From: a virus
Strand: one strand, 5' to 3'
Virus record (IMG/VR): IMGVR_UViG_3300036878_000043
Coordinates: 1-41,370 of that record
DNA length: 41,370 nt
The position numbers were made by a program, and so were the translations under genes. Positions 2,171 through 35,920 of this stretch are shown here, in pieces. Positions within the stretch are counted from its first letter, which is position 1. The number at the start of each line of letters is the position of its first letter. The notes below the pieces were generated by a model that saw nothing but the letters and a program-made list of their open reading frames with translations, was not told the origin of the DNA and did not search any database.

Positions 2171-3313
2171 TCAATACGGGATGAAGATCCCGCGGGCGAC
2201 TTCGCCCTTTTCTTTGTGATACGTCATGGAAGTTGCCTGGCGCTTGGAGAGCCAGCCACCGCGCGCCGCATATGCGTCGGACGCCGCTAGTGTGGGGTGC
2301 TGGATCACCTTCATGCCGGGATGCTCCTTCTCCTCGACGTGATGCTTGTGACCCGTATGAACATAGACGAATGGACAAGTTCCCCACTCCTCGCGGAATT
2401 TTGCGGCGAAGATCTGCGGGAGCGCCGTGAGCTTGGCCAGGTGGCCGTGGTAAAAGCCGATCAGGTTCTTACCCCACTTCATCGCCACGTAGGGATTTGG
2501 CGACATGCCGACCGTCACGCGTGGGTTATTGAGGTAGAGTTGCGCGAACATGACGCGCAGCCACACACTTCCCGCGGGATCGTGATTCCCTTCCGCCATG
2601 AATACCTGGACGGTGGCATGCTTCGTGAGTGCGTGCTCGATCACCCGGCGCAGGATCCGCACCGCGACCTCAACCATCTTCTGGTAGCGTGAATCCGCGT
2701 CCAGGATGTGGTGATTGGTGGGGGTCATCGGCTGCAGGGAGTCGAAGTGCAAGAAGTCGCCAAGCTGGTTGATGACGCCAACCGCGGAGGCCGGCGCCGC
2801 GTTGACCATCTGTATAAACGTACCTACAAGACAATTCTCTGCGATCTTCAGATCCCAGTCCTCGCCTGATTCTTTATCCCATGCGAGCATGCCGACATGC
2901 GCGTCGGTTAGAGTATAGAGGGTGAGTAGGTCAGCCTCCATCAGGGTGGGAGCCGGGATATTTGGCAGTGGTGGCAGCACGTCGCACATGGCCTGGAGTG
3001 CCGCGCGGCGCGCTTCCTCAATCAGTTTCTGGTCCGCGTCCGTCTTGATCCACTGCAGCTTGACTTCGCCATCCTTACCTACGAGTGTGGATGTGCCCTT
3101 GAGCTTGTAACCCTCGCCGGCGCTCGCCGGCTCCGCGCCTTGTAGGCGTTGCGTGCCTGCAATGAAGCCGCGCCGCATCGCTGCGTCGTGGCGTGATTGC
3201 AGGGTGGTGCGGGCGATCCCCAGGAAGCGGGCGGCCGCGGCCATTGATCCATGCGTGTTGACCACATCGATCGCTTGCTGGAGAACATCGTCAGGAGTCG
3301 GTATAGATGCCAT
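2171..3313 (-). CDS. Metallophosphoesterase with N-terminal helix-turn-helix
   Basis: A 380-aa two-domain protein. Residues ~8-45 (DDVLQQAIDVVNTHGSMAAA, then RFLGIARTTLQSR) look like a helix-turn-helix of the Fis/resolvase sort. Residues ~130-345 carry the calcineurin-like phosphoesterase motifs in order: TDAHVG (D137, H139), GDFLH (D186), GNHD (243-245), YHGH (288-291) and GHKHH (321-325). Such domains use two metals to cleave phosphodiesters or phosphomonoesters. Several tailed phages carry this fusion at a similar length, and a DNA-related substrate is a reasonable guess. GAGGA lies 6 nt before the ATG. The gene sits 6 nt after the SPFH gene and 19 nt before the HD gene, in one operon. Confidence 0.85.
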   Translation of the reverse strand: MASIPTPDDVLQQAIDVVNTHGSMAAAARFLGIARTTLQSRHDAAMRRGFIAGTQRLQGAEPASAGEGYKLKGTSTLVGKDGEVKLQWIKTDADQKLIEEARRAALQAMCDVLPPLPNIPAPTLMEADLLTLYTLTDAHVGMLAWDKESGEDWDLKIAENCLVGTFIQMVNAAPASAVGVINQLGDFLHFDSLQPMTPTNHHILDADSRYQKMVEVAVRILRRVIEHALTKHATVQVFMAEGNHDPAGSVWLRVMFAQLYLNNPRVTVGMSPNPYVAMKWGKNLIGFYHGHLAKLTALPQIFAAKFREEWGTCPFVYVHTGHKHHVEEKEHPGMKVIQHPTLAASDAYAARGGWLSKRQATSMTYHKEKGEVARGIFIPY

Positions 3314-3319
3314 AGATCC

Positions 3320-3859
3320 TCAGACGCTTTTGTTGTAGGGGTAGTGCTGGGTGCTCAGAATCCGGATGTTCTTCACTAGTGACACTCCGGCAAGCTGAAC
3401 AGAAATAATTTCGACGCCGTACTTCCAGCCCTTATTACGGCAGACCTTCGTGAGCTTGTCCAGTGTCTCACTCTTGCTGAGATCCGCCCAGTTCGAGAGC
3501 GTGAGCTCCTGGCCGATCATACCGAGACAGGCGTCCTTGATGGCGTCCTCGACATCCCAAACCTTCATTAGGGCCGTCTGGATGTCGTGGATCTTGTGCG
3601 TGACGACCACTTCGAAGCCGACCTGTTTGCCGTCTGCTGTGGTCGTCGCAAGCGCGCCCAGGTTGGTCGTGCGGATGGCCGTGCACTCCCACTGGAAGTG
3701 GTCAATGTTCATGGGGAGCCTGAAGAATAGGCCGGGCCCACATACACGGAGAACTTTCCCTAGACGTATGTGGACAGCTGCCTCATTCGGACCGAACACT
3801 GCCCAGAATTTAAAAAGGTCAGCGAACTGAATAAGGAAATCAATCAGCTTATCGAGCAT
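3320..3859 (-). CDS. SPFH/band-7 (stomatin-prohibitin-like) protein
   Basis: A 179-aa protein with a short amphipathic/hydrophobic N-terminus (LIDFLIQFADLFKFWAVF) followed by an SPFH-type core. The core shows the GPGLFFRLP strand-turn typical of stomatins at ~41-49, a beta-rich part (TTADGKQVGFEVVVTHKIHD), then the alpha-helical part with WDVEDAIKDACLGMIG, ending in GVEIISVQLAGVSLVKNI. SPFH proteins assemble as rings on membranes and control protease access, microdomains or membrane integrity. The C-terminal coiled coil of full-length stomatins is missing, so this is close to a bare SPFH domain. It starts directly after the stop of the 51-aa gene. Its presence in a structural/ejection operon is unusual. 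The domain call is fairly confident; the role is unknown. Confidence 0.8.
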   Translation of the reverse strand: MLDKLIDFLIQFADLFKFWAVFGPNEAAVHIRLGKVLRVCGPGLFFRLPMNIDHFQWECTAIRTTNLGALATTTADGKQVGFEVVVTHKIHDIQTALMKVWDVEDAIKDACLGMIGQELTLSNWADLSKSETLDKLTKVCRNKGWKYGVEIISVQLAGVSLVKNIRILSTQHYPYNKSV

Positions 3860-4015
3860 TTACTTCGGCTTGATGGCTGCGTTGGCAATCCGAATCGCCT
3901 TACCCTCATCGCCAGTACGCTTGAGTACCGATGTCGCAATCGCTGCGGCCTTTGTGCCTTTCGCACCAACAGCCTTCTTGTTGTGCTTCTTGAATGTATC
4001 TTTGGTCCAGGGCAT
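3860..4015 (-). CDS. Small basic protein, 51 aa, of a recurrent phage type
   Basis: This short gene lies between the giant protein gene and the SPFH gene. It has a near-ideal AGGAG 6 nt before the ATG at 4015, and its TAA abuts the ATG of the SPFH gene. The peptide starts MPWTKDTFKKHNKK, has a lysine-rich first half, and ends with a helix containing GDEGKAIRIANAAIK. The W-T-x-(D/E)-x-F-x-K-H and DEGKAIRIANA pattern is one I recognise from small phage hypothetical proteins, but no function is known to me. The basic charge could suit nucleic-acid or protein binding. Translation is probably coupled to the SPFH gene. Confidence 0.8.
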   Translation of the reverse strand: MPWTKDTFKKHNKKAVGAKGTKAAAIATSVLKRTGDEGKAIRIANAAIKPK

Positions 4016-4024
4016 TGCAATCTC

Positions 4025-7000
4025 CTATTGAGTGTTGTACATCGAACCGGCGGCAGTGATCTCGGGGACCTGCTTGTTCCGCACCTTGGCGCCATAGATC
4101 TGCAGCTCGCGCTGCTGCTCGGCACGCATAACCTGCGCCCGCCGAAGGTCGGAGTATGCCAGGCGAAAGCCCGGATGCGCTTGATTGAACTGGTTCACCT
4201 TCTGCTGGACATCGCCGCGCGCATTTGGTTCCGCGGAAATGTACTCCTGGATCAAAGATTTTCGCTGGTCCGTCAGGGCGCCCTGCAGGTTGCGCTCCGC
4301 TGTGTTGCGCTCCTGCACCTCGGTGACCGCTTCGGGGCGGAAGCCTAATGACTGCGCGAACAACTGCGGGCCAGTCAGCTTATCCGCGGGGATCAGTGCC
4401 GAGCCGGCATTGTTGACTACGCCCTGCTGGCTCATCGCGCCGGCCTTCACGAGATCACGGATGATGTGCGGCGACATGCCCTGGATCCCGCCGACTGGAT
4501 CACCGCCAAGGAACTTCTTGCCAGCATCCCAGAAATTCTCCCCGACATTCAGCCACGGCCCCCCAAATGTTTCAAGAAGGCTGCCAAGGGTCGAGGCGTC
4601 GGAGTCGGTTCGGAGATGGAATTGATAAGTGGACCCGAGAGCCATTCGCTGAGACAGATCCACGCCGAGAGCACTAGGAAGACCCTTAGAAGCAACTTCG
4701 CCCAGTTCAGTTCCAAAGAGCTCATTCATTACTCCGCGTAGTTCATGATCATAGGTGTCGCCCGAGAGCGCGCTGGCGACGGTGTAGGGCTGGTCCGTGA
4801 GTCCCATCGCAGAGGCTCCCGCCATCAGGGCACCCAATGCCCACTTGATGGGTTGAATGGTCGCACCAACGGCACCGGCCGCCAGAAGGTGCGTAGCGAG
4901 AACGCCCGTAAGCGTCTTAAGTCCGATCGCTCTCTCCGCTGGCGATTTGCCTTTTAGGGCGGCCAAGCCAGAGGAAATCATCGCGCCATATACCTGCTGC
5001 GGGTACTTCATAAATTGAAACATCAGCGGCCGCATGCCGCCGGTGAGGCCATTCGCCTGCGCCATGAACAGGCGCGGCGTGTTGCCATAGGAGTAGTCGT
5101 TGTGCGTGACGTTGATCGCCTCCGAGGCGTGGTCAACTGCCTGCGCTTCCGTCATGCCGTCCCGTAGTCCGAGCTCGCGCGCGGCGATGGCGGTCATTAC
5201 GCGGTTATTCACTTCGATCAAGTGGAGCATGACGCGGCTCGCGTCGAGTACGCGCGCGGAGAGCCCCGTGGATTTACCCTTGGAGATATCCGAGAGCTCG
5301 GTGGCCATCGAGAGGTCGATGAGGTTGTTGTCGCGCAGGTGCTGGATCATGGCCTGGATGGGTTTGGCATCTGCGCCACCGGCCTGGCCGATGTGGTTAA
5401 TCACCTGGTCGGTCACGGTGAAGGACTTCTCCGCCGCTGCGCGGCTAAACAGTGCTTTGATGCCGAGACCCGACTCCGCCGTCTCGCGTACGAGCGGGGA
5501 GGCAATCCTCGCCTGGGCGCGGCCGAGCGCGGCGACTGAATCTGAGAAGCCGTGCCGCGCGCCGAGCCACGGAGCCGACAGTACGTAAGGCTGGGCGCCG
5601 CGGACGAACCAGTGCGACGGCGAGGTGAGCATCATGAACTGCGTAAGACTTGTACCCTTGCGCACAAGATCCGATACCTGGTAAGGGTTCCGGGAGATTT
5701 GGTCTCGCAGTGCCAGCTCTCGAGCAAACTCTCCCATGCGGACAGCTGAGACCTGGGACTCATCACGATGAGTCGACACAGCGCGCTGAACCTCTCCTTG
5801 GGCATTTGCGAGATGGCGTCCATACTTAAGCTGTGACAAGTAATAAGACTGCGAACGGCCATACTGCGTGAAAGATCGATGCTGGTTTTCAATGTTGACG
5901 CCGCGGACGTTGGAGCGCGCGAGCTCTCTCTTTCGGAAAGATGCTTCACCGAGCGAGCGAAGGTAGAAATCTTTAACTGCAATTTGCGCTGCAGGGTTGG
6001 TGTCAAGTTCGCGGAGGATACGGTCAAGCGCACTACCTGTGGCAATGCCGCTCGGCTCTTTATAGAGATCTGCCTTGAGCTGAACAGGGGACGTATTTTC
6101 CTCGCCATATTGCGCTGCCATCTCGCGTTGGTGCTGGTTCGCTTCACTCTTGCTCTCCGCCATCCGGACTTCCTTTTCGACAACGCCCACGCGATAAGTT
6201 CCATCTTCCGTCTTGCGAACGGAAACGGCCAGTGTCGGATCATCCGCGCGCCGCCCCCGCATGTAGGCCTGGGCGGCCTCGGACGTATCGAATTCCTTGG
6301 ACGCGAGTGCACGTTTGGAGGTCACGACATAGTCGCCGTTGCGCATCAACGGGAAGTAGGGGCCCTTGCGGTCGGTGATGTTGCCGATTTTGGCGAGCAT
6401 ATCCTGGGAGGCGCCCGACAACTTATCTCCAAACTCTCGTTGCAAACCCTCCTGGGTGTCGAGGCCTAGCTTCTGGATGGATGCGGCGTCGTACTTGGCA
6501 TCGAAATCCCTGGGTGACATGGCCGCGTCCTCACCTTTGGTGAGCATGGCATGCAGGCCGTTTAGGACGATCTGGTCCGTGCTGGCGCGCTGCTCCGCGG
6601 CGTAATATGCCTTCATCGTCGAGTAGTGCTCCTTCAGGGGAGCAGGCAGCGTTGCAAAATCACTTCGCGCAGCGTCCGCACGGCCAACATTCGCACCCGC
6701 CACGTGGCTGTTGGACTCGTGGCCAGCCGGTAGATCAGCGTGGAATCCATATAACGTAGAGTCGTGCATGATTCGGGATAATTTTGCCGCGTTATCGATG
6801 CCATGGGTGTCCTCCAGATTGGACCACGTATTCGACAATTTGCCGACGTGCTCCATCGACTTCGCGTTGTCCGCGGCCCGCTTGAAATAGGTGTCCCAGT
6901 ATCGCTTGTACGGATTGCCGTTGGGACCCTCGAAATATTTGGAGAATTGTCCGCTCTGCTGGCGCGGGGTCATGGCTGAGAGGCCAAACTGTCCGGCGCC

Positions 7001-10000
7001 GTGGGTCGCATTCTCAGCGAGATTGCGCATGGTCTGCGTATCGATGCCGAGGGATTTTGTAATGCGGTCGATCCCGTTGCCGACGTGCGCGCCCTCGGCG
7101 TCGTGCTCGAGGTTCATCCCGGGGAGGGCCTTCGTGCCGGGGGTGGTGGCATACTGCTTGCCTTTGAAGATATTGCCATGCTCCCGCATGATTGCATCGA
7201 GTGCGCTGAAATGCTTGTCGGTGGACTTGAAGCCGAGGATGTCAGCCACGATGCTCTTGAAGCGGCCCCACACCGTCTCGTTGACGTTCGGTACCTTCAC
7301 GGTGTCGAGGAAAGCCTTGAACTCATCATTGCTGTAAGCCTCGGCGACCATTTCGTGTATGTCATTGGTCCTCGACCCGTAGTGCAGTTGTGCCTCCGCA
7401 CGTTGCTTCACGAGCGAAAGCAAAGCCTCGAGCCGTTGCCGCACCACCGGATTGGCGTCGATCGCACGGCTCGTTGCGACGTGTAGGAGTTCATGTCCAA
7501 GAGTGTGGATGAGCTGGAACTCGGGCGACTGACCCTTGGCGCGTAGGGCCTCGTGCGCATCGCGGTTGATATGGATGTTGGGAGCGTCGGGAGCCCATTT
7601 CGTGGTGCCTAGGACGTGCGGCTTCATGCCCTCGCCGTAGCCGACGAGGCTGTGAGCGTCCGTCACATGCTGCAGCGCGGTGAATAGGCGGTGCACTGGG
7701 GAGCCCTCCGGGAACTGGCGTAATACTTCCCGTATTACAACGCCGGCACGCACGGGGCCGTTCTCGAAGTGGTCCGCGATCGCCTTGGCTGCGCCGGTGA
7801 AGGCGGTTGGCTTCTGCGGATAGCCCAGCGCGCTGCGCAGGTGCTCGAGGTTCTGCTCCTCAGGAGGCGTCTCCGCGCGCGGCGGGTTGAGCGCCTCACC
7901 GGTATAGCCCAGACCCAGCTCCTCGTTGTGCGCTAGGCGCTGCGGGTTGGCGCCGCTCGCGCGCAGGTTTTGCCGTTTGAGCTCAGTATTGTAGGCATCG
8001 ATCAGGTACTGCGCGCGGTCCGCGGGGGACTTGTCGGTCAGGAGCTTGATGTGTGCGTTGAACTGCTTCGCCGCGGCCATGGCCTCAGCGCCCTTCATGC
8101 TGCCGTCGCGTAGCGCACGGCCATACTGCAGGATCTGCCGCATGTAACTGCGCGCCAGCACAGGGTTACCCTCGACGTCCTCACGGCCGACCTTGCCCAG
8201 CTCGGCAATTGCCTTCTCGCCCTTCTTTACCGAGATCGTGATGTCCTTCTTCAACCCTGTCCGCATAGCCTCGCGCGCCTTGCGGTCCTGGGTGTTCATC
8301 TCCATCTCGCGCTGCGACTCGACGGTAGCCATCAAGTTCTCAGGATCGAAGGTCTTGTAGCCAACGATCTTCTTCTGGAACTTGGAGCGCGCGGAGTTCT
8401 TCTGCGACTCGCGCTCGGTCAGCGCACGACGCGGCGAGACCGCCATCTTGTCGGACTTGGCATTGGAGAACCCGCGGGCCTCATAAGAGAGACGCTCGCG
8501 GTTGTAGCGATTGATCAGTTTCTCCATCTCGGAGCGGGTCTTCCCGTACTCGGCGCGTATCTGCTCAGGCGATCGGCCGACTTCTTCCTTGCCGGCGAAA
8601 TGCTGGACAGCCTGGTCAAAATGCGGCTGCAGTTCGTCCCGCGTCATAGTGCGCAAACTCGCGCGTGAGGCCGCGGGCTCAGGCTCCATAGCCGTCGGTT
8701 CTATCCGCTCGAGGGGCCGGACGTATTGTCGTCCAACTGCTCGCTTATTTTCAGCGAACTCTCGGACGCCTTCGGGGGAGACTCGTACGGCCGCCCGAGC
8801 AACTTGTTCAGCTCGGGTCTCGTGGGGGTTGGTCTTGAGGAATGTCGCAATGCGGCGCTCGGCCATATCCAGGCCTGCTTGAGCTTTTGCCACATCTTCC
8901 GCGCTGTGCGCGGTATTACGCATGACTCGCATCCCAGCAAGTTCGTGATCGAGGCCTTCATACTGTCGCTGAGCGACTTCAGAACGAAAGTCAATATCTC
9001 GCGGATCAGGAGCCCCAATACCACGCCATGCCCTACCTGCAACTTCATTGTGAACCCTCTGTGCTTCCGCGGTTATGCGACGCGCCGCTTCCTCACGATC
9101 GATCGCAGGTGACTCATTACCAGTAGCCAAGTCACGTGCAGCAGCAGCACGCGCACGTAAAGCTGTAGCCCGATCTGGGATCGTTTCAGTCGCTCTGGAT
9201 ACTTCACGTGCGGTCCCCTGTTCAGCTTGCGCACGTTGTTGTACCTCATTCTCGCGACCTGTCAAGGCGGCCCGCCGCAAAACTTCGGCAGGCCCCGGCG
9301 CTACGTTCTTTTCACCAGTAGCGTGCTCAATAACTTCCTCAGGCGTGCCCACCTTGTTGTCACGGAGCTGGGTAAGCTCGGTGGCGGCGGCCTGATCTTT
9401 GGCAATGAGGGTTCCGCCTTTTCCATCAAAATTGACCAGAGGTACCGCCGCATCTCCCGCTTGGTCGCGAACGCGGTCCAGTAAACCTGATTGTCGGAGC
9501 GACGCCACAGTATCCCCCGGGAGGAACACGCCAGTACGCGCGCTTTGTGAACTCTGTAGGTCATGCAGCTGGCCCTCGATATCGGTGAAGGGCCGGGCAC
9601 CGGGCGCCTCGGGGTTACCTTGGATCGTAGGGCGGTTTCCCACCGTGGTCAATTGCCCGGGAACGGGCTGGTCACGGAGTAGGTCGGGCTGATTCCAGTC
9701 TTGCGGCGCGGCCGCGCGCTGACGCAACTCATCGGCGACCGTGCGCGGCGGCTCGGCCACCGGCGGCATTTGGGGTCCCCCGCGCGCTCGCGTCCGCAAA
9801 GGGAGGTTAAGCTGTGCGGGCGCTGGAATGGGCGGTGTGGGACCCGGGCGCGGGGGATTCATCTCGCCGCCACGGAGATCCAAATTCCCCTGCGGGCCGT
9901 TCGGTTCCTGCATGCCATTAGGCACCGGCGGGGGCTGCTCGGGCGGCTGGGCACCTTCATAGTGTGCGCGTATCGCCGCGGCGAGGTCTGGTCGGCCAAA

Positions 10001-11401
10001 CATCTCGCTCTGCTGCGGCGGATGCTCGAGTGGTAATTCACCCTGTTGAGGAGCAGGTGGTGGGAAATCGAACCCCATCTGGCCGCCGGCACCGGGCTGC
10101 GGCGCAGCCGGGCGCGGCCCTTGCTCTAGCGGACCGAGCTGCCCTTGTTGGGGCGGCTGTTCCTGGCGCGTACCGTAGTCAAATTCGGCCTGCTGGGGAG
10201 CAGTGACGTGATTCTCGGTCGCCGCACCGGTCGCCTTATTCTCTGGCGTGTTTGCCATCGTCGCATGAAGTTCAGGTGCTGTGCCCAGCTCGGGCGTCTT
10301 CTCGGGGTGCAGCGGACCACTGCGGCCGTGGAACGCGGCAAGTCCCGCGCCCAGGGCACCCTGCGACACGCCGGCCTCGACGCCGGCTCGAGCGGCGCCG
10401 ACGAGATCCGGCGCGCGGCCGCTGTCGTAAACGTGCGCGGCGGTCTCGCTTGCAACATAGTTGGTCGCACCGACACCGGCACCCTGCGCAAACTGATCGG
10501 CGAAGCCCATACCAGCGCGCTTCATAAGGCCGGCACCTGCTTCACCTGTCAGAACGGGTGTTAGGAACCGTCCCGCCAATGTGGCAATCGCACCGGAGAC
10601 CAACCCGCCGACGACCGGCGCGTAGCGCTGGGCCTGCTGGGTGAGCTCCTGTCGCGCGGCCTGCGGATCCATGCCCTTGTCGAGCAACTGCGCGAACATT
10701 GGCGACTGCTGGCGCAGTGTGTTGTCATCACGCGCGCCGATTTCCTGTTCAATGTTGTTCGAAATCGCACCGATCGATAACCCCGTCTGCGTGGCTCCAA
10801 CGTACGCGAGCGCACGGTTGACCATGCCGGCCTTCGCCATAACACCCATCGGGAGTAGCATCGTGAGCGTGGAGGGGGCCGCGTTGGCCATCTGCAGGAC
10901 CAGTGCATGCGTGAAGTCATGGGCACCTCCCTGCCAGATCGTCTGATGCGGGTCAAGCGATGTCCACTGCCGCGCCATGAGGTCAGTATCCTGCGGCGTC
11001 ATGGACGCCTTCCAGTCCTCAGCGGCATTCCCAATGGTCCGGTTGACCTGGCTTAAGCCCTGGGAAATAGCGGAATTAGGGGCGATTTGATTGCCTGCCC
11101 AGGCGCCGAGTCCAGTGACCTGGTGCGCGAGCTCGCCGGCACCACCGACAAGCGCGTGACCTGCGCCGCCGAAAATACCCTCTTTCGGAGGAGCAGTCTT
11201 CCAGGGCGCGTCGGCGAAGAAATTCGTGACAACATGGGGATCTACCGGCGGCGAACCGAGAGCGCCCGGCCGCGGCGCGACGGGGGACTCCTGGAGCATC
11301 TCATTGGCTTGCTGCCGGACGTTCTGGATGGTCTGGGGTTGCAGGCGCTGCGGTTCGTCGACAGGAACGTCGGGGAGCTGCAGCGTTGGATTCAGCGCCA
11401 C
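4025..11401 (-). CDS. Giant internal virion (ejection) protein with zincin-like HELLH motif
   Basis: A 2458-aa protein, by far the largest here. It starts at GTG (11401) after a G-rich ribosome site, 3 nt after the preceding ejection-protein gene. The N-terminus has hydrophobic helical stretches at ~165-290. Residues ~390-560 are Pro/Gln-rich linker. A long charged helical middle follows. At 1303-1307 lies HELLH in a hydrophobic helix (LIHTLGHELLHVA), the signature of zinc metallopeptidases. Near ~2155-2200 there is a long Ala/Leu/Gly-rich hydrophobic region that could cross a membrane. Size and position match the large ejection proteins of podoviruses (T7 gp16 analogues, or the large polyvalent proteins of Bcep22-like phages), which enter the cell with the DNA. 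Whether the HELLH is catalytic, and what it would cut, cannot be told. I saw no lysozyme motif. Confidence 0.8.
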   Translation of the reverse strand: MALNPTLQLPDVPVDEPQRLQPQTIQNVRQQANEMLQESPVAPRPGALGSPPVDPHVVTNFFADAPWKTAPPKEGIFGGAGHALVGGAGELAHQVTGLGAWAGNQIAPNSAISQGLSQVNRTIGNAAEDWKASMTPQDTDLMARQWTSLDPHQTIWQGGAHDFTHALVLQMANAAPSTLTMLLPMGVMAKAGMVNRALAYVGATQTGLSIGAISNNIEQEIGARDDNTLRQQSPMFAQLLDKGMDPQAARQELTQQAQRYAPVVGGLVSGAIATLAGRFLTPVLTGEAGAGLMKRAGMGFADQFAQGAGVGATNYVASETAAHVYDSGRAPDLVGAARAGVEAGVSQGALGAGLAAFHGRSGPLHPEKTPELGTAPELHATMANTPENKATGAATENHVTAPQQAEFDYGTRQEQPPQQGQLGPLEQGPRPAAPQPGAGGQMGFDFPPPAPQQGELPLEHPPQQSEMFGRPDLAAAIRAHYEGAQPPEQPPPVPNGMQEPNGPQGNLDLRGGEMNPPRPGPTPPIPAPAQLNLPLRTRARGGPQMPPVAEPPRTVADELRQRAAAPQDWNQPDLLRDQPVPGQLTTVGNRPTIQGNPEAPGARPFTDIEGQLHDLQSSQSARTGVFLPGDTVASLRQSGLLDRVRDQAGDAAVPLVNFDGKGGTLIAKDQAAATELTQLRDNKVGTPEEVIEHATGEKNVAPGPAEVLRRAALTGRENEVQQRAQAEQGTAREVSRATETIPDRATALRARAAAARDLATGNESPAIDREEAARRITAEAQRVHNEVAGRAWRGIGAPDPRDIDFRSEVAQRQYEGLDHELAGMRVMRNTAHSAEDVAKAQAGLDMAERRIATFLKTNPHETRAEQVARAAVRVSPEGVREFAENKRAVGRQYVRPLERIEPTAMEPEPAASRASLRTMTRDELQPHFDQAVQHFAGKEEVGRSPEQIRAEYGKTRSEMEKLINRYNRERLSYEARGFSNAKSDKMAVSPRRALTERESQKNSARSKFQKKIVGYKTFDPENLMATVESQREMEMNTQDRKAREAMRTGLKKDITISVKKGEKAIAELGKVGREDVEGNPVLARSYMRQILQYGRALRDGSMKGAEAMAAAKQFNAHIKLLTDKSPADRAQYLIDAYNTELKRQNLRASGANPQRLAHNEELGLGYTGEALNPPRAETPPEEQNLEHLRSALGYPQKPTAFTGAAKAIADHFENGPVRAGVVIREVLRQFPEGSPVHRLFTALQHVTDAHSLVGYGEGMKPHVLGTTKWAPDAPNIHINRDAHEALRAKGQSPEFQLIHTLGHELLHVATSRAIDANPVVRQRLEALLSLVKQRAEAQLHYGSRTNDIHEMVAEAYSNDEFKAFLDTVKVPNVNETVWGRFKSIVADILGFKSTDKHFSALDAIMREHGNIFKGKQYATTPGTKALPGMNLEHDAEGAHVGNGIDRITKSLGIDTQTMRNLAENATHGAGQFGLSAMTPRQQSGQFSKYFEGPNGNPYKRYWDTYFKRAADNAKSMEHVGKLSNTWSNLEDTHGIDNAAKLSRIMHDSTLYGFHADLPAGHESNSHVAGANVGRADAARSDFATLPAPLKEHYSTMKAYYAAEQRASTDQIVLNGLHAMLTKGEDAAMSPRDFDAKYDAASIQKLGLDTQEGLQREFGDKLSGASQDMLAKIGNITDRKGPYFPLMRNGDYVVTSKRALASKEFDTSEAAQAYMRGRRADDPTLAVSVRKTEDGTYRVGVVEKEVRMAESKSEANQHQREMAAQYGEENTSPVQLKADLYKEPSGIATGSALDRILRELDTNPAAQIAVKDFYLRSLGEASFRKRELARSNVRGVNIENQHRSFTQYGRSQSYYLSQLKYGRHLANAQGEVQRAVSTHRDESQVSAVRMGEFARELALRDQISRNPYQVSDLVRKGTSLTQFMMLTSPSHWFVRGAQPYVLSAPWLGARHGFSDSVAALGRAQARIASPLVRETAESGLGIKALFSRAAAEKSFTVTDQVINHIGQAGGADAKPIQAMIQHLRDNNLIDLSMATELSDISKGKSTGLSARVLDASRVMLHLIEVNNRVMTAIAARELGLRDGMTEAQAVDHASEAINVTHNDYSYGNTPRLFMAQANGLTGGMRPLMFQFMKYPQQVYGAMISSGLAALKGKSPAERAIGLKTLTGVLATHLLAAGAVGATIQPIKWALGALMAGASAMGLTDQPYTVASALSGDTYDHELRGVMNELFGTELGEVASKGLPSALGVDLSQRMALGSTYQFHLRTDSDASTLGSLLETFGGPWLNVGENFWDAGKKFLGGDPVGGIQGMSPHIIRDLVKAGAMSQQGVVNNAGSALIPADKLTGPQLFAQSLGFRPEAVTEVQERNTAERNLQGALTDQRKSLIQEYISAEPNARGDVQQKVNQFNQAHPGFRLAYSDLRRAQVMRAEQQRELQIYGAKVRNKQVPEITAAGSMYNTQ

Positions 11402-13939: not shown

Positions 13940-15683
13940 TTTGGCCTCCCATCATCTGTTGCCGCTGTTGCTGCGCCGGTACGTGGTACCGCTGGAGTAG
14001 TTTGTCGAAAAATTCCTTGCCTTTCGCATGGACGACGTCCGCCGGGATGATGTACTCGCCGACCGACACCTTCGCATGAACCTGATCGTCGATGCCAGTA
14101 CCATCACTCATGCCATGTTGGATCATACCAGGACCGGGCGAGCCACCATTGGCAGCTATCCAGGGACCTGGCATATTCATGGTTGGGGGCACGCGCGGCT
14201 GGCCGCCGTCCGCGGCAACCGACATCGGCTGCGGGATACCGATCTGCGGCGGGACACCCTGCGAGCGCTGGACCGCCGGGTTGCCAAAATCTGGACGCTT
14301 GCGTTGCGGGATCGCGCCGCCATTGGCCGCGGCGAGGAGTGCCGGCGCAGCCTCAGCAGCAACTGCCGCAATTTCGGGGGCGGCTGCGGCAAGTGCAGTA
14401 CCAGCGGCATCTGCCGCGGCACCTGTACCCGCGGCCGCGGCGACATCACCGGCGGCGGCACCAGCAGCGGGAGCTGCAGCTGCGGCGGCGTCACCTGCGG
14501 CGGCACCTGCGGCGGGAGCGACGGTGTCACCTGCACCCATAGCACTATCCGCGGCGCCGTTCTGGCTGCCCACGGATGACATAAGATTCTGGATCTCCGG
14601 ATCCTGGTTCACATTCGCCATGGTCTGCGGCAGCATCGAGTTGTCCTGGGCATTCGCGATGTTGCCCCCGATATTCTGACCCTGCCGGTAGCCCAGCATG
14701 GCGGCACTCATCGGGTTCGATTGGCCTCCGCCACCCCCGCCGCCACCGCTTCCGCTTCCGCTACTGGAGGGCGCTTGGTAGCTGGGTCCAATAGCCGGGC
14801 CGCCCGCAGGAAGGGGGACCATTCCCGCACTGCCACCGTTGGCGTACCGGCCGCGGATCGCGCCGCCGTCCGCCGCGCCGACCACCATACCCAGGCCCTG
14901 ACCGGCCATGTTCATGAGCGCGTTGGCATTAGCCTGGTTGGCACCATAGGCCGTCATCTGGTTGCCGAAGGTCTGGTTGGCGATATTCGCCTCCGTTCCG
15001 TAGCCCGTGAGGCCCGTATTCATCATCTGAGAAGGAGCCGAGAGTGCGCCCGAGCTCGTCGAAGTCGTCTGGTTGCCGATACCGGCCACGGTCTGCCCGG
15101 TCGCATTGGCACCGGCGCCGTAGCCCTGACCGACCTGTGAGCCCATCATGTTCTGGCTGAGCGCGTTCGACACGAGGCCCATACCCGTGAGCTGGCGCTG
15201 CTGCCCGGCCTGGTAGCCAGCGTTGCCGACAGCGCCCGCCTGCTGCAGGTTGGCGTTCAAATTGAGTGCGCCCGACTTCATCTGGCTGGGGTCCACGCCA
15301 TAAGAGCCGAGCTGCTGCATGTTGTTCGTGCGCGCGGCGCTGTAGGCCTGCCCAGTCGCCGCGGCAGCGCCCGCCTGCGCGGTATTCATGCCCCCGGCAT
15401 TGCCGTAATTCTGCGCCGTCGTAAGTTGGTTGCCGAGCCCACCGAGCGTCTGCCCGTACATGCCCGCGCCGGCCGCATTGGCCCCGGTGTCTGTACCTAC
15501 CTGTGGGGTAAGTGAACCTTGGAGACCGCTAGCTACAGCGCCATTATTTGCGGCCTGCCCTTGTGCCCAACCGAGCTGCGAGGCGCCAGCCGCCGCACCA
15601 GCCGCACCAATATTGCCCGCCGCACTCTGTTCAGCAGAGGTGTTGGGAGCGATGGGTACGGTGCCGCCGCCGCCGAGGCACAT
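13920..15683 (-). CDS. Probable internal virion (ejection) protein, 587 aa, Gly/Ala/Gln-rich
   Basis: A 587-aa protein of very biased composition. Residues 1-260 are Ala/Gly/Gln/Asn repeats. A Ser/Gly run of eight glycines lies near 313-320, and 388-452 is an alanine-rich helix with near-repeats of PAAGAAAGD. DGG/NGG peptides occur at about 271 (AADGGAIRGR), 281 (YANGG), 452 (AANGGAIPQRKR), 490 (AADGGQ) and 510 (AANGG). The C-terminus has a compact segment, QVHAKVSVGEYIIPADVV at ~534-551 followed by KGKEFFDKL, that I recognise as recurring in phage virion proteins of this kind. The start overlaps the GNAT stop (TAATG). By order it corresponds to the first, smallest ejection protein, but that remains inference. 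Confidence 0.7.
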   Translation of the reverse strand: MCLGGGGTVPIAPNTSAEQSAAGNIGAAGAAAGASQLGWAQGQAANNGAVASGLQGSLTPQVGTDTGANAAGAGMYGQTLGGLGNQLTTAQNYGNAGGMNTAQAGAAAATGQAYSAARTNNMQQLGSYGVDPSQMKSGALNLNANLQQAGAVGNAGYQAGQQRQLTGMGLVSNALSQNMMGSQVGQGYGAGANATGQTVAGIGNQTTSTSSGALSAPSQMMNTGLTGYGTEANIANQTFGNQMTAYGANQANANALMNMAGQGLGMVVGAADGGAIRGRYANGGSAGMVPLPAGGPAIGPSYQAPSSSGSGSGGGGGGGGQSNPMSAAMLGYRQGQNIGGNIANAQDNSMLPQTMANVNQDPEIQNLMSSVGSQNGAADSAMGAGDTVAPAAGAAAGDAAAAAAPAAGAAAGDVAAAAGTGAAADAAGTALAAAAPEIAAVAAEAAPALLAAANGGAIPQRKRPDFGNPAVQRSQGVPPQIGIPQPMSVAADGGQPRVPPTMNMPGPWIAANGGSPGPGMIQHGMSDGTGIDDQVHAKVSVGEYIIPADVVHAKGKEFFDKLLQRYHVPAQQQRQQMMGGQNGHFQR

Positions 15684-16165
15684 TAGAGTGCCTTCGAGTA
15701 GGCGACGCCGAGGGGCTTAAAGCCTTCATCTTCCAGGAGTACACCGACATTGGCTCCGCCGCTGGGCTTCCTAGAAGACATGATGAAATAGTCCACGCCG
15801 AGCTCCTTAAGCCTTTTTTCGCTGTACTTGAGGAGTCGCCGAGCCAATCCTGACCCGCGGTATTCCGGCACGATGTAGTAACCGTCATCGCTCGCGACCA
15901 AACTCGAGTCATGGGCGCTAGGTGTGACGTAGACGATAAGATAAGCTATTAGCTGTTGGGAATCAACCAATCGGGCGCCGAAGCAGACCACACTGCCGGC
16001 CGCCTCGCAGGCGATGAAATGCGGGTAATTGACATTCACCGTGTGGTGCTTGTACGCCGGCTCGGTCTCGAAATAATGGGCAACGCGCAAGGGCCGCAGT
16101 TCTTCAACGCAATCCTTAATAAGGACCGTCTGAATCTCGAAGCTCTTAAGGATTTTCGGAGTCAT
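15683..16165 (-). CDS. GNAT-family N-acetyltransferase
   Basis: A 160-aa GNAT-fold protein. The acetyl-CoA pyrophosphate-binding motif is clear: YIVPEYRGSGLARRLL at ~97-112, with R103-G-S-G-L-A matching the R/Q-x-x-G-x-G/A signature, followed by the helix LKYSEKRLKELG. The N-terminal half supplies the usual beta strands. GNAT enzymes transfer an acetyl group to an amine on a protein or small molecule. Phages often carry one next to virion genes, where acetylation of a host or virion protein is suspected but rarely shown. It overlaps the spanin gene upstream (ATGA) and the 587-aa ejection protein gene downstream (TAATG), so it is tightly coupled to both. The substrate is unknown. Confidence 0.88.
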   Translation of the reverse strand: MTPKILKSFEIQTVLIKDCVEELRPLRVAHYFETEPAYKHHTVNVNYPHFIACEAAGSVVCFGARLVDSQQLIAYLIVYVTPSAHDSSLVASDDGYYIVPEYRGSGLARRLLKYSEKRLKELGVDYFIMSSRKPSGGANVGVLLEDEGFKPLGVAYSKAL

Positions 16166-16665
16166 TTCCCGGTCAACCCGTCGCGGTCCGCCATGCAGGC
16201 GCTCAGTGCGTTTTGATCGTCACGGAGGGATCCGGCAAGATCAAGAGCCACTTGCTCCAAGCTGCTAAGGCTGCGTTCGACTCCGTTATCGCCTGGAGTT
16301 CCCGCTGCTTGAGGCTGGGTTCCACTACCGGCACTTTCCAGTGCGGGGTGGCTACTGCGATAGGCGTCGTAGTCGCGCAGGCGCTGAGCATCAGACTCAT
16401 GCTGAGCAGCGCTAGCTTTGTCGTTTTCATCTGCTTTCTCCGTGATTGCCGCCACGGTCGTGGCGTAGTTAGCTGCGGTTTCGGCGACTTGCTTCGTCGC
16501 GGCGTCGGTCAGGGTCTTACTGGACGCCTGCAACGCAGCGATCTCGTGCGCGGCGCCTTTCGCCTCGATGTGCTTGTATTCATACACGCCGAACAGTAGT
16601 AGGGCTATGATAGCCCCGCCATAGAATAAATCTTTGCCGGGGATCAAAGCTAAAAGAGCGCCCAT
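16162..16665 (-). CDS. Rz-like inner-membrane spanin subunit
   Basis: A 167-aa protein with one N-terminal transmembrane helix at ~13-28 (YGGAIIALLLFGVYEYK) and a long Ala/Glu/Gln-rich helical, coiled-coil-prone periplasmic part to ~105, then a flexible Pro/Gly stretch and a final helix. This is the layout of i-spanins, which join an outer-membrane lipoprotein partner to fuse the two membranes in the last step of lysis. The diagnostic point is that a lipoprotein gene (16203-16430) lies entirely inside it in another frame, as in nested Rz/Rz1 pairs. It follows the holin-like gene with no gap and overlaps the GNAT gene. Sequence similarity among spanins is low, so the call rests on topology and nesting. 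Confidence 0.8.
   Translation of the reverse strand: MGALLALIPGKDLFYGGAIIALLLFGVYEYKHIEAKGAAHEIAALQASSKTLTDAATKQVAETAANYATTVAAITEKADENDKASAAQHESDAQRLRDYDAYRSSHPALESAGSGTQPQAAGTPGDNGVERSLSSLEQVALDLAGSLRDDQNALSACMADRDGLTGK
16203..16430 (-). CDS. Rz1-like outer-membrane lipoprotein spanin, nested in the Rz-like gene
   Basis: A 75-aa protein with a typical lipoprotein signal: MKTTKLALLSMSLMLSAC, lipobox LSAC with Cys18 as the acylation site, and neutral residues (ATTT) after it that favour the outer membrane. The mature part is short with several prolines, as in o-spanins. GGAG lies 7 nt before the ATG at 16430. The whole gene lies inside the i-spanin gene in a different frame, the classical embedded architecture. 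It should pair with the 167-aa protein across the periplasm and act after endolysin has cut the wall. Confidence 0.85.
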   Translation of the reverse strand: MKTTKLALLSMSLMLSACATTTPIAVATPHWKVPVVEPSLKQRELQAITESNAALAAWSKWLLILPDPSVTIKTH

Positions 16666-17589: not shown

Positions 17590-18054
17590 CTAACTGACGT
17601 TTTCGAGCTGTTTCAGGATCGCCTCGGCCCGCGTGGGAGTCTCGCGGTACCAGGAGGTTCCTCGGGCGTCGTCCGCTGCCTCTCGGAAACGGTGTTGTGC
17701 CACTAGTGTGTCAAAAGTCGTGAACTCGCGCAAGTCACCAAGTTGATACGACATCTCCACCAGGAGAGTTTGAACCAAGTCAGGCAGGGACGCAAATGTG
17801 GGAAACCGGATGGAAAGGGCCGCCAAATCGGACGCCAATTTACCCCGCAGGAGCCATCGCGCGCCGGCGCCCGAGAGCGAAACGGTGATGAGCTTATTGT
17901 CGAGGAGGTACTTCCAGTCCATCCCGGAGGGTGGATTGGTCTCGAGGCAGGTCCCCTCGCCGACGGTCCAGCGGCGCTTGGTATCGAGGTAGGGGGCCGC
18001 CTTGTAGCCTTCGTAGGCTGAGGTGTCCGTTGCCGCTTTGTCGAGGTCGGTCAT
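17590..18054 (-). CDS. Endolysin, T4-type lysozyme (GH24 muramidase)
   Basis: A 154-aa protein matching glycoside hydrolase family 24. The T4 lysozyme catalytic triad E11-D20-T26 aligns with E15 (AYEGYK), D24 (PYLDT) and T30 (RRWTVGEG), with the same spacing. The C-terminal half keeps the family helices: LLVEMSYQLGDLREF, then FREAADDARGTSWYRETP and RAEAILKQLE, equivalent to the QMG...SRWY..TP.RA region of T4 lysozyme. It cuts the MurNAc-GlcNAc bond of peptidoglycan. There is no signal peptide or SAR-type N-terminal anchor, so release should need a holin. The ATG overlaps the stop of the upstream 56-aa gene (ATGA). Length is normal for the family. Confidence 0.93.
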   Translation of the reverse strand: MTDLDKAATDTSAYEGYKAAPYLDTKRRWTVGEGTCLETNPPSGMDWKYLLDNKLITVSLSGAGARWLLRGKLASDLAALSIRFPTFASLPDLVQTLLVEMSYQLGDLREFTTFDTLVAQHRFREAADDARGTSWYRETPTRAEAILKQLENVS

Positions 18055-34017: not shown

Positions 34018-34515
34018 ATGTCTGATGAGGCTGGCAGTGCCAATACCTCGGTAACAGTGCCCGGTACGGGAACCTCCATTGAACTGGGTGACTTGAAGGC
34101 GTCCATTGCGGCCGAGCTCGCAGCCGAGCTCTGTGGCCCGGAGGATATCCGTAAGCGCTATGGACTGACCGTGGCCCAGTGGAACCTCCTCAAGACCAAT
34201 TCCGTGTTTCGCGCGATGCTCAAGGACGCCCTGGTGACCTGGCGCGGATCGCTCGCCGCCGGTGCGCGCATCACGAAGAAGGCTGAGATCATGCTCGAGG
34301 ATACGATGCCCGAGCTCTATGGCCTCGCCCGGAATGTCACCGTTCCCAGTGGTGAGCGCATCAAGGCCATCCAGACTTTGGCCGATCTCGCTGGTCGATC
34401 TGCTAAGACCCAGGCGCCCACGGGCGCGGCCGCGCAGGGATTCACCCTGAATATCCAATTCTCCGACAACAAGTCCAACGTCACGATCGACGGGAAGGCA
34501 ACACCCAGTGAGTGA
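34018..34515 (+). CDS. Terminase small subunit (probable)
   Basis: A 165-aa protein directly before the large terminase. It contains a helix-turn-helix-like part, CGPEDIRKRYGLTVAQWNLL at ~41-60, then SVFRAMLKDALVTWRG, and a second helical part ending in QTLADLAGRSAK. It ends in a flexible beta-like tail (GFTLNIQFSDN). The small subunit recognises the packaging site and feeds DNA to the motor. The sequence family is divergent, so the call rests on position, size and the HTH pattern. The stop overlaps the GTG start of the large subunit by 8 nt, indicating coupled translation. It is transcribed opposite to the portal gene. Confidence 0.75.
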   Translation: MSDEAGSANTSVTVPGTGTSIELGDLKASIAAELAAELCGPEDIRKRYGLTVAQWNLLKTNSVFRAMLKDALVTWRGSLAAGARITKKAEIMLEDTMPELYGLARNVTVPSGERIKAIQTLADLAGRSAKTQAPTGAAAQGFTLNIQFSDNKSNVTIDGKATPSE

Positions 34516-35920
34516 TAAAACCTCGGCCACCTACGTTGTCCCCCCGACGGTTGAGAAGTTCATGAAGGACGACGCTTCCGCGGTGCGCCTGATCATGGGG
34601 CCGTGGGGATCCGGCAAGACGACGGGCTGCATCATGGAACTCGTGCGGCGCGCGACCGAGGAGTATCCGGACCCGCAGGGGACCCGCAAAACCCGCTTCG
34701 TAGTCGTTCGTAACACATCTTCCCAGCTCCGCCAGACGGTCCTCGAGGACATCAAGAAGTGGCTCACGCCTGCGATGACCTACAAAGTCACGGACTCGAC
34801 AGTGCAGCTGCGCTTCGGCCTCCCCGATGGCACGAGAGTTGAGAGTGATTGGCTGCTGATCCCGCTCGACACTCAGGCCGACATTGAGCGATTGCTGTCT
34901 CTCAACATCACGGGTGGATGGATTTCAGAGTTCCGCCAAATCCCCATCCCGATCGTCGAAGCGCTGTACGGACGTTGCGGCCGCTTCCAGCCCCTCGGCG
35001 TTGCGAAAAATAAATGGTACGGCGTGATCGCCGAGTCGAACCCGCCCGACGAAGACTCCGACTGGTATATCCGCATGGAGCTCGAACTGCCGGCAAACTG
35101 GAAAGTCTACAAGCAGCCGGGCGGCCTTGATCCCGGCGCAGAAAATATCCCGAACCTACGCGACAACTACTACGCCGATCTGCGGACGTCGAACACCAAA
35201 GATTGGTCCGACGTGCACATCGACGCGAAGTATGGTAAGTCCCTTTCAGGGCAGGCTGTGTTTCGCTCGTCGTTTCGCCCGGAGTTCCATGTATCGCAGA
35301 GCCGCCTTATACCGGTGTCTGGGTACCCCCTTATGCTCGGCCAGGATTTCGGCCGCACGCCGGCGAGCCTCATCACCCAGGTGGATGTCCGGGGACGCCT
35401 TCTCATACTTGGCGAGCAGACGTCGACCGATATGGGTGTTGAACAGTTCCTTCAGACGCTTCTGAAACCGACTCTGGCCCGGAATTTCCCAGGCTATCCG
35501 GTCTTTATCATAGGGGATCCAGCGGGCCGTCAGAAGGGACAAGTCGGTGAGGAATCCCCGTTTGATGCGCTCAAGCGCCTCGGTTTCAGCTCCTATGCCG
35601 CCCCAACAAACGACATCGAACCACGGTTGCGCGCTGTTGAACAACTCTTTCTGCGCAACGTCGATGGTGGACCAGCCGTCCTCATTGACGGTATAGCATG
35701 TCCCCTTCTCGTACGCGCACTCAAGTTCGAGTACCGCTACCGTCGCAAACAGACGGGAGACCTCGACGATAAGCCGGAGAAGTCGCATCCCGCCTCGGAC
35801 GTTGCGGACTGCCTTCAGTATGCAGCACTTGGCGCGACGGGAAACTACAGTGCCCGGGTTATGGCGGAAGGTAAACCGCGGGCGCGTCGTGCCGCGATGC
35901 CCGTGCGCGCGTGGACGTAG
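34508..35920 (+). CDS. Terminase large subunit
   Basis: A 470-aa packaging motor with a GTG start overlapping the small-subunit stop. The ATPase part has Walker A GPWGSGKTT at 31-39 and a Walker B-like strand with catalytic Glu141 (ITGGWISEF). The nuclease part has an RNase H-like acidic set: D280 (LMLGQDFGRTPA), D337 (FIIGDPAG), and D431/D434 (ASDVADCLQYA). It cuts concatemeric DNA and pumps it through the portal. The gene is isolated on the plus strand with its small subunit. Its stop lies 2 nt from the stop of the convergent glycosyltransferase gene, with no terminator between. Confidence 0.93.
   Translation: MSDKTSATYVVPPTVEKFMKDDASAVRLIMGPWGSGKTTGCIMELVRRATEEYPDPQGTRKTRFVVVRNTSSQLRQTVLEDIKKWLTPAMTYKVTDSTVQLRFGLPDGTRVESDWLLIPLDTQADIERLLSLNITGGWISEFRQIPIPIVEALYGRCGRFQPLGVAKNKWYGVIAESNPPDEDSDWYIRMELELPANWKVYKQPGGLDPGAENIPNLRDNYYADLRTSNTKDWSDVHIDAKYGKSLSGQAVFRSSFRPEFHVSQSRLIPVSGYPLMLGQDFGRTPASLITQVDVRGRLLILGEQTSTDMGVEQFLQTLLKPTLARNFPGYPVFIIGDPAGRQKGQVGEESPFDALKRLGFSSYAAPTNDIEPRLRAVEQLFLRNVDGGPAVLIDGIACPLLVRALKFEYRYRRKQTGDLDDKPEKSHPASDVADCLQYAALGATGNYSARVMAEGKPRARRAAMPVRAWT

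Follow-up and report, generated by a model that had tools for sequence, protein, structure and literature searches.

A short family of phage-encoded SPFH proteins that lacks the cage region and recurs beside DNA-ejection and capsid genes

SPFH (Band_7) proteins of the stomatin and QmcA type are about 290–305 aa long, combine the SPFH1 and SPFH2 domains with a coiled coil and a dome, have a NfeD partner gene and are anchored in the membrane by a hairpin or a transmembrane segment. The SPFH domains of HflK and HflC are periplasmic, and those of QmcA and YqiK lie on the cytoplasmic side (PMC10434171). SPFH proteins encoded by phages are already known as well. T4-like phages carry an SPFH gene (44RR, Aeh1 and RB43) whose role is unsettled (PMC1524935), the same holds for the SPFH protein of DLP3 (PMC7326821), modulation of HflKC/FtsH with an effect on lysogeny or proteolysis was suggested for the SPFH protein of Bruynoghevirus relatives (PMC8540360), an SPFH lipoprotein of a Vi01-like phage (Sajous1 gp200) was detected by phage proteomics (PMC10892097), and GIB1 is another phage with an SPFH gene (PMC13239085). 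As the original prediction for the locus studied here had stated, no settled role for a phage-encoded SPFH, stomatin or prohibitin protein was found in the literature searched. In the same literature we found no description of the type of protein presented here, a short, cage-less and ejection-linked family that we refer to as mini-SPFH.

We analysed a 41,370-nt stretch of viral DNA (IMG/VR record IMGVR_UViG_3300036878_000043), called the window in the following, in which a mini-SPFH gene is part of a group of genes encoded on one strand:

2171–3313, minus strand: metallophosphoesterase of 380 aa (DNA repair exonuclease-like, phrog_704), downstream of the SPFH gene
3320–3859, minus strand: mini-SPFH (Band_7) protein of 179 aa with an intact frame (Pfam, AlphaFold2, Foldseek)
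3359–3373, minus strand: KNIRI, codons 163–167, conserved C-terminal motif located where the coiled coil would otherwise begin, with R166 invariant
3365–3796, minus strand: Pfam Band_7 match covering SPFH1 and SPFH2, residues 22–165
3815–3856, minus strand: predicted N-terminal amphipathic helix, codons 2–15, without a transmembrane segment
3860–4015, minus strand: basic ORF of 51 aa, whose TAA stop abuts the ATG of the SPFH gene
4025–11401, minus strand: giant protein of 2458 aa, DarB-like/polyvalent-type, upstream in the SPFH operon

The original prediction had placed a stomatin-like SPFH protein of 179 aa behind a small basic gene of 51 aa; both ORFs are present, and the SPFH assignment was confirmed by profile and fold. 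Band_7 (PF01145) was matched with E = 2.5e-11 and 44.4 bits (Pfam cut-off 23.6), as it was by all 38 aligned mini-SPFH homologues. An AlphaFold2 single-chain model, computed with 38 natural homologues, reached a mean pLDDT of 91.8 and a pTM of 0.78 and contains SPFH1 and SPFH2, both complete. When this model was compared with the PDB using Foldseek, human stomatin was the best match (E = 3.5e-13, probability 1.0), followed by HflC, HflK, erlin, prohibitin, QmcA and flotillin, all of which likewise reached a probability of 1.0. The sequence-only profile of the family pointed in the same direction, matching stomatin at 3e-22 and QmcA at 2.5e-19. The NCBIfam equivalogs for HflK (32.5 bits, E = 5.7e-8, cut-off 159.4) and HflC (15.4 bits, cut-off 134.4) stayed below their cut-offs, and the profile of the longer phage SPFH proteins (phrog_200, 'lipoprotein') did not match the window protein, while it matched a member of the second mini-SPFH clade, L034 (E = 3.5e-8). 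In 18 pairs of relatives dN/dS was at most ~0.19, indicating purifying selection; together with the intact frames of the relatives, this rules out a degraded remnant, an outcome that would have spoken against the prediction. Judged by profile and model, the ORF is a genuine SPFH/stomatin-like protein encoded by a virus of bacteria.

At both termini the protein departs from these relatives. The hydropathy scan found neither a transmembrane nor an export or signal segment in the window protein (maximum over 19 residues 1.39, compared with 3.36 for the HflC N-terminus), and its N-terminus is instead predicted to form an amphipathic helix, the likely anchor in place of the hairpin or transmembrane anchor of stomatin and QmcA. 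Across 14 mini-SPFH members, the hydrophobic moment of this helix was 0.50–0.73 (shuffle P 0.001–0.03) and the best 19-residue hydropathy did not exceed 1.9, against 3.4 for HflC. In the alignment of the window's clade D3 is invariant and K4 is kept as K or R. The conserved N-terminus is not an artefact of the search pattern, as nearly all matches of a second scan, whose query lacked residues 1–24, began in a like manner with M[FLI][DE][KRQ]. At the other end, 46 of 48 mini-SPFH sequences carry the motif [KRN]-[NSTA]-x-R-[LIVF] after the last strand, the other two retaining R-L, and family-wide the protein stops 0–20 residues past xR[LIVF]. The window protein ends 13 residues past R166, and its AlphaFold2 model has no helix beyond residue 146. 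It is at the position of this motif that the long CC1 helix starts in cage-forming SPFH proteins; the coiled-coil helices and the C-terminal cap that follow SPFH2 there are absent from the window protein and from the mini-SPFH family. Human stomatin from which the coiled coil has been removed forms no more than monomers or dimers and is still associated with membrane domains (PMC5456319). Because the cage region is missing and coiled-coil-less stomatin behaves in this way, a closed cage is, by analogy, not expected for mini-SPFH, and the suggestion that the protein forms membrane rings guarding proteases does not fit a family that ends right after the SPFH domain. The monotopic membrane mode, a feature of stomatin, is one that we likewise read for mini-SPFH.

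Apart from copies truncated by contig ends, the mini-SPFH proteins examined for length are 167–190 aa long (~175 aa, compared with ~290–305 aa for stomatin and QmcA). The family is widespread, almost entirely uncultured and nearly absent from reference phages. In IMG/VR, a single alignment query gave 169 confirmed relatives, so that at least 169 mini-SPFH loci exist there; a query without the N-terminal 24 residues recovered 25 loci of the window's own clade, and one from the second clade recovered 191 loci overlapping the set of 169. Eight diverse core sequences, when aligned, varied too much for the alignment to serve as a scan query. By tblastn, the window protein had no match in 50,697 phage records (INPHARED). 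Among reference phages, a full-length relative is encoded in MW202733 (Podoviridae ctgrD200, 'prohibitin-like protein', ~180 aa), where the gene follows the terminase gene and the protein is very divergent, with a long branch, and a partial match was found in MT835563. In BFVD, a protein of an uncultured Caudovirales virus named 'HflK' (A0A6J7WFI0, 173 aa) superimposes on the window model with TM 0.86/0.89. Both the MW202733 protein and A0A6J7WFI0 have the size and fold of mini-SPFH, are annotated by name only, without a family description, and are probably members of the family. Bacterial and archaeal genomes gave no match with the window protein as query; with the alignment as query, mini-SPFH was found in two Bacteroidota MAG contigs (L083:370–927 and L084:10001–10558), whose products are identical to each other over the first 75 residues. 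At least one of these genes has chromosome-like neighbours, which points to a mini form that is cellular or was acquired recently. In the phylogenetic tree, the window protein lies within the starred clade of 18 rows together with proteins from ejection contexts; the ejection group clusters with sister lineages, the group located between portal and capsid genes forms one clade, and cellular SPFH proteins fall on one side of a branch with a support of 78, the branches being long. C111 (95%), C140 (100%) and the SPFH2 motif CR..GW.[WYF]G.E are nearly invariant in the window's clade, and the other mini-SPFH clade lacks them.

The longer phage SPFH proteins (phrog_200; 44RR, Aeh1 and RB43; DLP3 and DLP5 with 264 aa; Sajous1 gp200) share with mini-SPFH that they are phage-encoded Band_7 proteins of unsettled role, and some of their kind co-occur with mini-SPFH in one genome. 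In six records (L095, L096, L097, L098, L099 and L100) a second, longer SPFH protein is encoded in addition to mini-SPFH. The six longer proteins (264–414 aa) differ from mini-SPFH in their extended C-terminal part and in an N-terminus that is mostly transmembrane- or lipoprotein-like, and the profile of the mini family gives a poor match or none to their SPFH part. The ORF preceding the longer gene encodes a small (65–126 aa) probable membrane protein in each of the six.

Within the window, the genes for the giant protein, the 51-aa ORF, the SPFH protein and the phosphoesterase are closely packed, the phosphoesterase gene beginning 6 bases past the SPFH stop. The 2458-aa ORF matches a DarB-like antirestriction PHROG (E = 1.7e-30), and none of the ORFs adjoining the SPFH gene matched NfeD. 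The terminase large subunit gene (34508–35920) is on the plus strand, and the other window genes that were checked are on the minus strand. An 85-aa ORF at 761–1018 contains the HNH-like motif DVDHRKPLASGG, is conserved in L113 (89 aa) and had no NCBIfam match.

The original prediction coupled the SPFH protein to the small basic partner in front of it. The 51-aa ORF is indeed basic, its TAA is directly followed by the ATG of the SPFH gene, and an AGGAG site precedes the 51-aa ORF while the SPFH ORF has none at proper spacing, so the stop-start junction makes translational coupling of the two likely. A dedicated partnership did not hold up. The 51-aa ORF had no significant match in Pfam, PHROG or NCBIfam, and other mini-SPFH genes have different neighbours. 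Because one relative of the ORF adjoins a terminase-like gene in L132, a record without Band_7, and another was found in an archaeal virus, it is not a dedicated SPFH partner, and nothing beyond adjacency connects the two.

Placement behind ejection genes, also part of the prediction, turned out to be recurrent in the window's clade. In nine of 22 loci, representing eight distinct lineages, the SPFH gene is located downstream of a gene for a DNA-ejection-type protein of 650–750 aa, which matches phrog_26400 in L161 (E = 5.7e-34, with phrog_4287 upstream of it) and in L148 (E = 1.9e-29) and was assigned by homology cluster in the other loci. On the downstream side of the SPFH gene, all nine except the cut-off L159 encode a giant protein of 1162–1559 aa belonging to one homology cluster. 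In most ejection-context loci a nuclease-like/phosphoesterase gene lies in between; in L114/L152, L157 and L161 this gene adjoins the SPFH gene and is homologous to the phosphoesterase gene of the window. The window shares with L155 a related giant protein upstream of the SPFH gene, and in L155 this relative of the 2458-aa protein is accompanied by an endolysin (phrog_7) and a spanin-like protein (phrog_739). The second clade has its SPFH gene between portal-type and major-head-type genes in 36 loci, an arrangement confirmed with PHROG for L034.

Given the recurrent position behind ejection genes, it is reasonable to suppose that the protein acts at the inner membrane, either around DNA entry or late in infection. 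Our preferred reading, which we advance tentatively as the best supported one, is that mini-SPFH is a late-made monotopic protein of the inner membrane, located at its cytoplasmic leaflet, that serves as a scaffold at the contact between the membrane and the machinery for ejection or assembly. The protein would be synthesised late, alongside ejection and virion proteins, and would dock on the inner membrane from the cytoplasmic side as a monomer, a dimer or a shallow assembly. Once docked, it might provide a small membrane-binding scaffold at the meeting point of the phage machinery and the membrane, and would act in this way and not as a protease-guarding cage. The fold, the family, the missing cage region, the amphipathic anchor, the selection and the recurrent ejection/virion placement were established computationally, from sequence and predicted structure, and the oligomeric state and the side of the membrane are what we infer. 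Gene position is no proof of function: the lysis-gene or tail-fibre neighbours (the latter in L149, L150, L153, L154 and L160) found in other lineages count against a role in ejection or assembly. We know of no virion proteomics for any member of the family.

Mini-SPFH could also act on host proteins. It might join the cytoplasm-facing SPFH proteins of the host (QmcA, YqiK/flotillin and stomatin types), cap or break their cage and thereby alter membrane domains or envelope quality control. The protein is close to stomatin and QmcA in sequence and fold, and Band_7 proteins were matched in all 14 control genomes. Its topology would match that of QmcA and YqiK (PMC10434171), and by analogy it has kept the SPFH1/2 fold from which the inter-subunit contacts of erlin/prohibitin cages arise (PMC12624060) while missing the coiled-coil wall. 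A dominant-negative protein, however, has no obvious need to be encoded in a virion or ejection operon, and such a decoy might also disturb the longer SPFH protein that six of the phage records encode themselves. We consider this alternative unlikely, though one to be taken seriously. Rather unlikely, too, is a role in genome entry itself, in which mini-SPFH, phage-specific and possibly even injected, would work with the DNA-ejection proteins and, as a cage-less scaffold, prepare or seal the patch of inner membrane around the DNA channel.

The gene is optional in the window's own lineage. Fourteen of 16 records, gathered mainly via the neighbouring phosphoesterase, have no Band_7 gene, several of these records being fragments, and in L113, which is close by synteny, the slot that holds the 51-aa ORF and the SPFH gene in the window holds a gene for a 90-aa protein instead; for these reasons the SPFH gene counts as accessory there. 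The search of TerL relatives for SPFH covered seven contigs, six of them short. The 90-aa product of L113 (3557–3829), flanked by the related giant protein on one side and the phosphoesterase on the other, is a probable membrane protein, and a homologue of it sits after the phosphoesterase in L116. This patchy presence, and the different small membrane protein in the same slot, would suit a gene for superinfection exclusion or another optional fitness trait (a moron) that occupies a permissive position after the ejection genes. However, eight lineages keep the gene between the same ejection-type genes and 36 loci keep it between those for portal and capsid, which is steadier than is usual for such slots, and we regard a moron as improbable.

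Lysis-type neighbours raise a further alternative, in which mini-SPFH at the inner membrane would modulate the action of holin or spanin and so help to time or localise lysis. SPFH genes lie beside endolysin/spanin genes in L001, L146, L155 and L012, with endolysin and holin/spanin-like neighbours for L001/L143, L146 and L155 and a phrog_894 endolysin nearby in L012. In the window itself, however, the lysis-type genes (lysozyme-like, 17590–18054; i-spanin-like, 16162–16665) are ~12 kb away from the SPFH gene, and in both clades the SPFH gene is flanked by virion genes at most loci, so that a lysis accessory appears more doubtful still. A GNAT acetyltransferase gene (15683–16165, Pfam E = 2.6e-8) separates the spanin-like gene from those encoding virion proteins. 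The proposed competition with HflKC/FtsH, affecting lysogeny or the proteolysis of phage proteins, has in its favour the weak, below-cut-off HflK match, but it is very improbable and was rejected as a general role, as mini-SPFH has no transmembrane or signal segment and no coiled coil and is predicted not to be periplasmic, unlike HflK/C (PMC10434171), and as neither FtsH nor NfeD genes occur in 32 phage records with mini-SPFH, fragments included, and integrases in only two of 33.

To our knowledge, phages have been known to encode SPFH proteins for about 20 years, yet no role has been assigned to these. Mini-SPFH is small, intact and tied by position to ejection and capsid genes, and since it is stripped down to the SPFH core, it offers a minimal case for studying the action of an isolated SPFH domain at a membrane. 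It also allows one to ask if genome entry involves control of the inner membrane by the phage, and it may be relevant to the evolution of SPFH cages and to ways of poisoning them.
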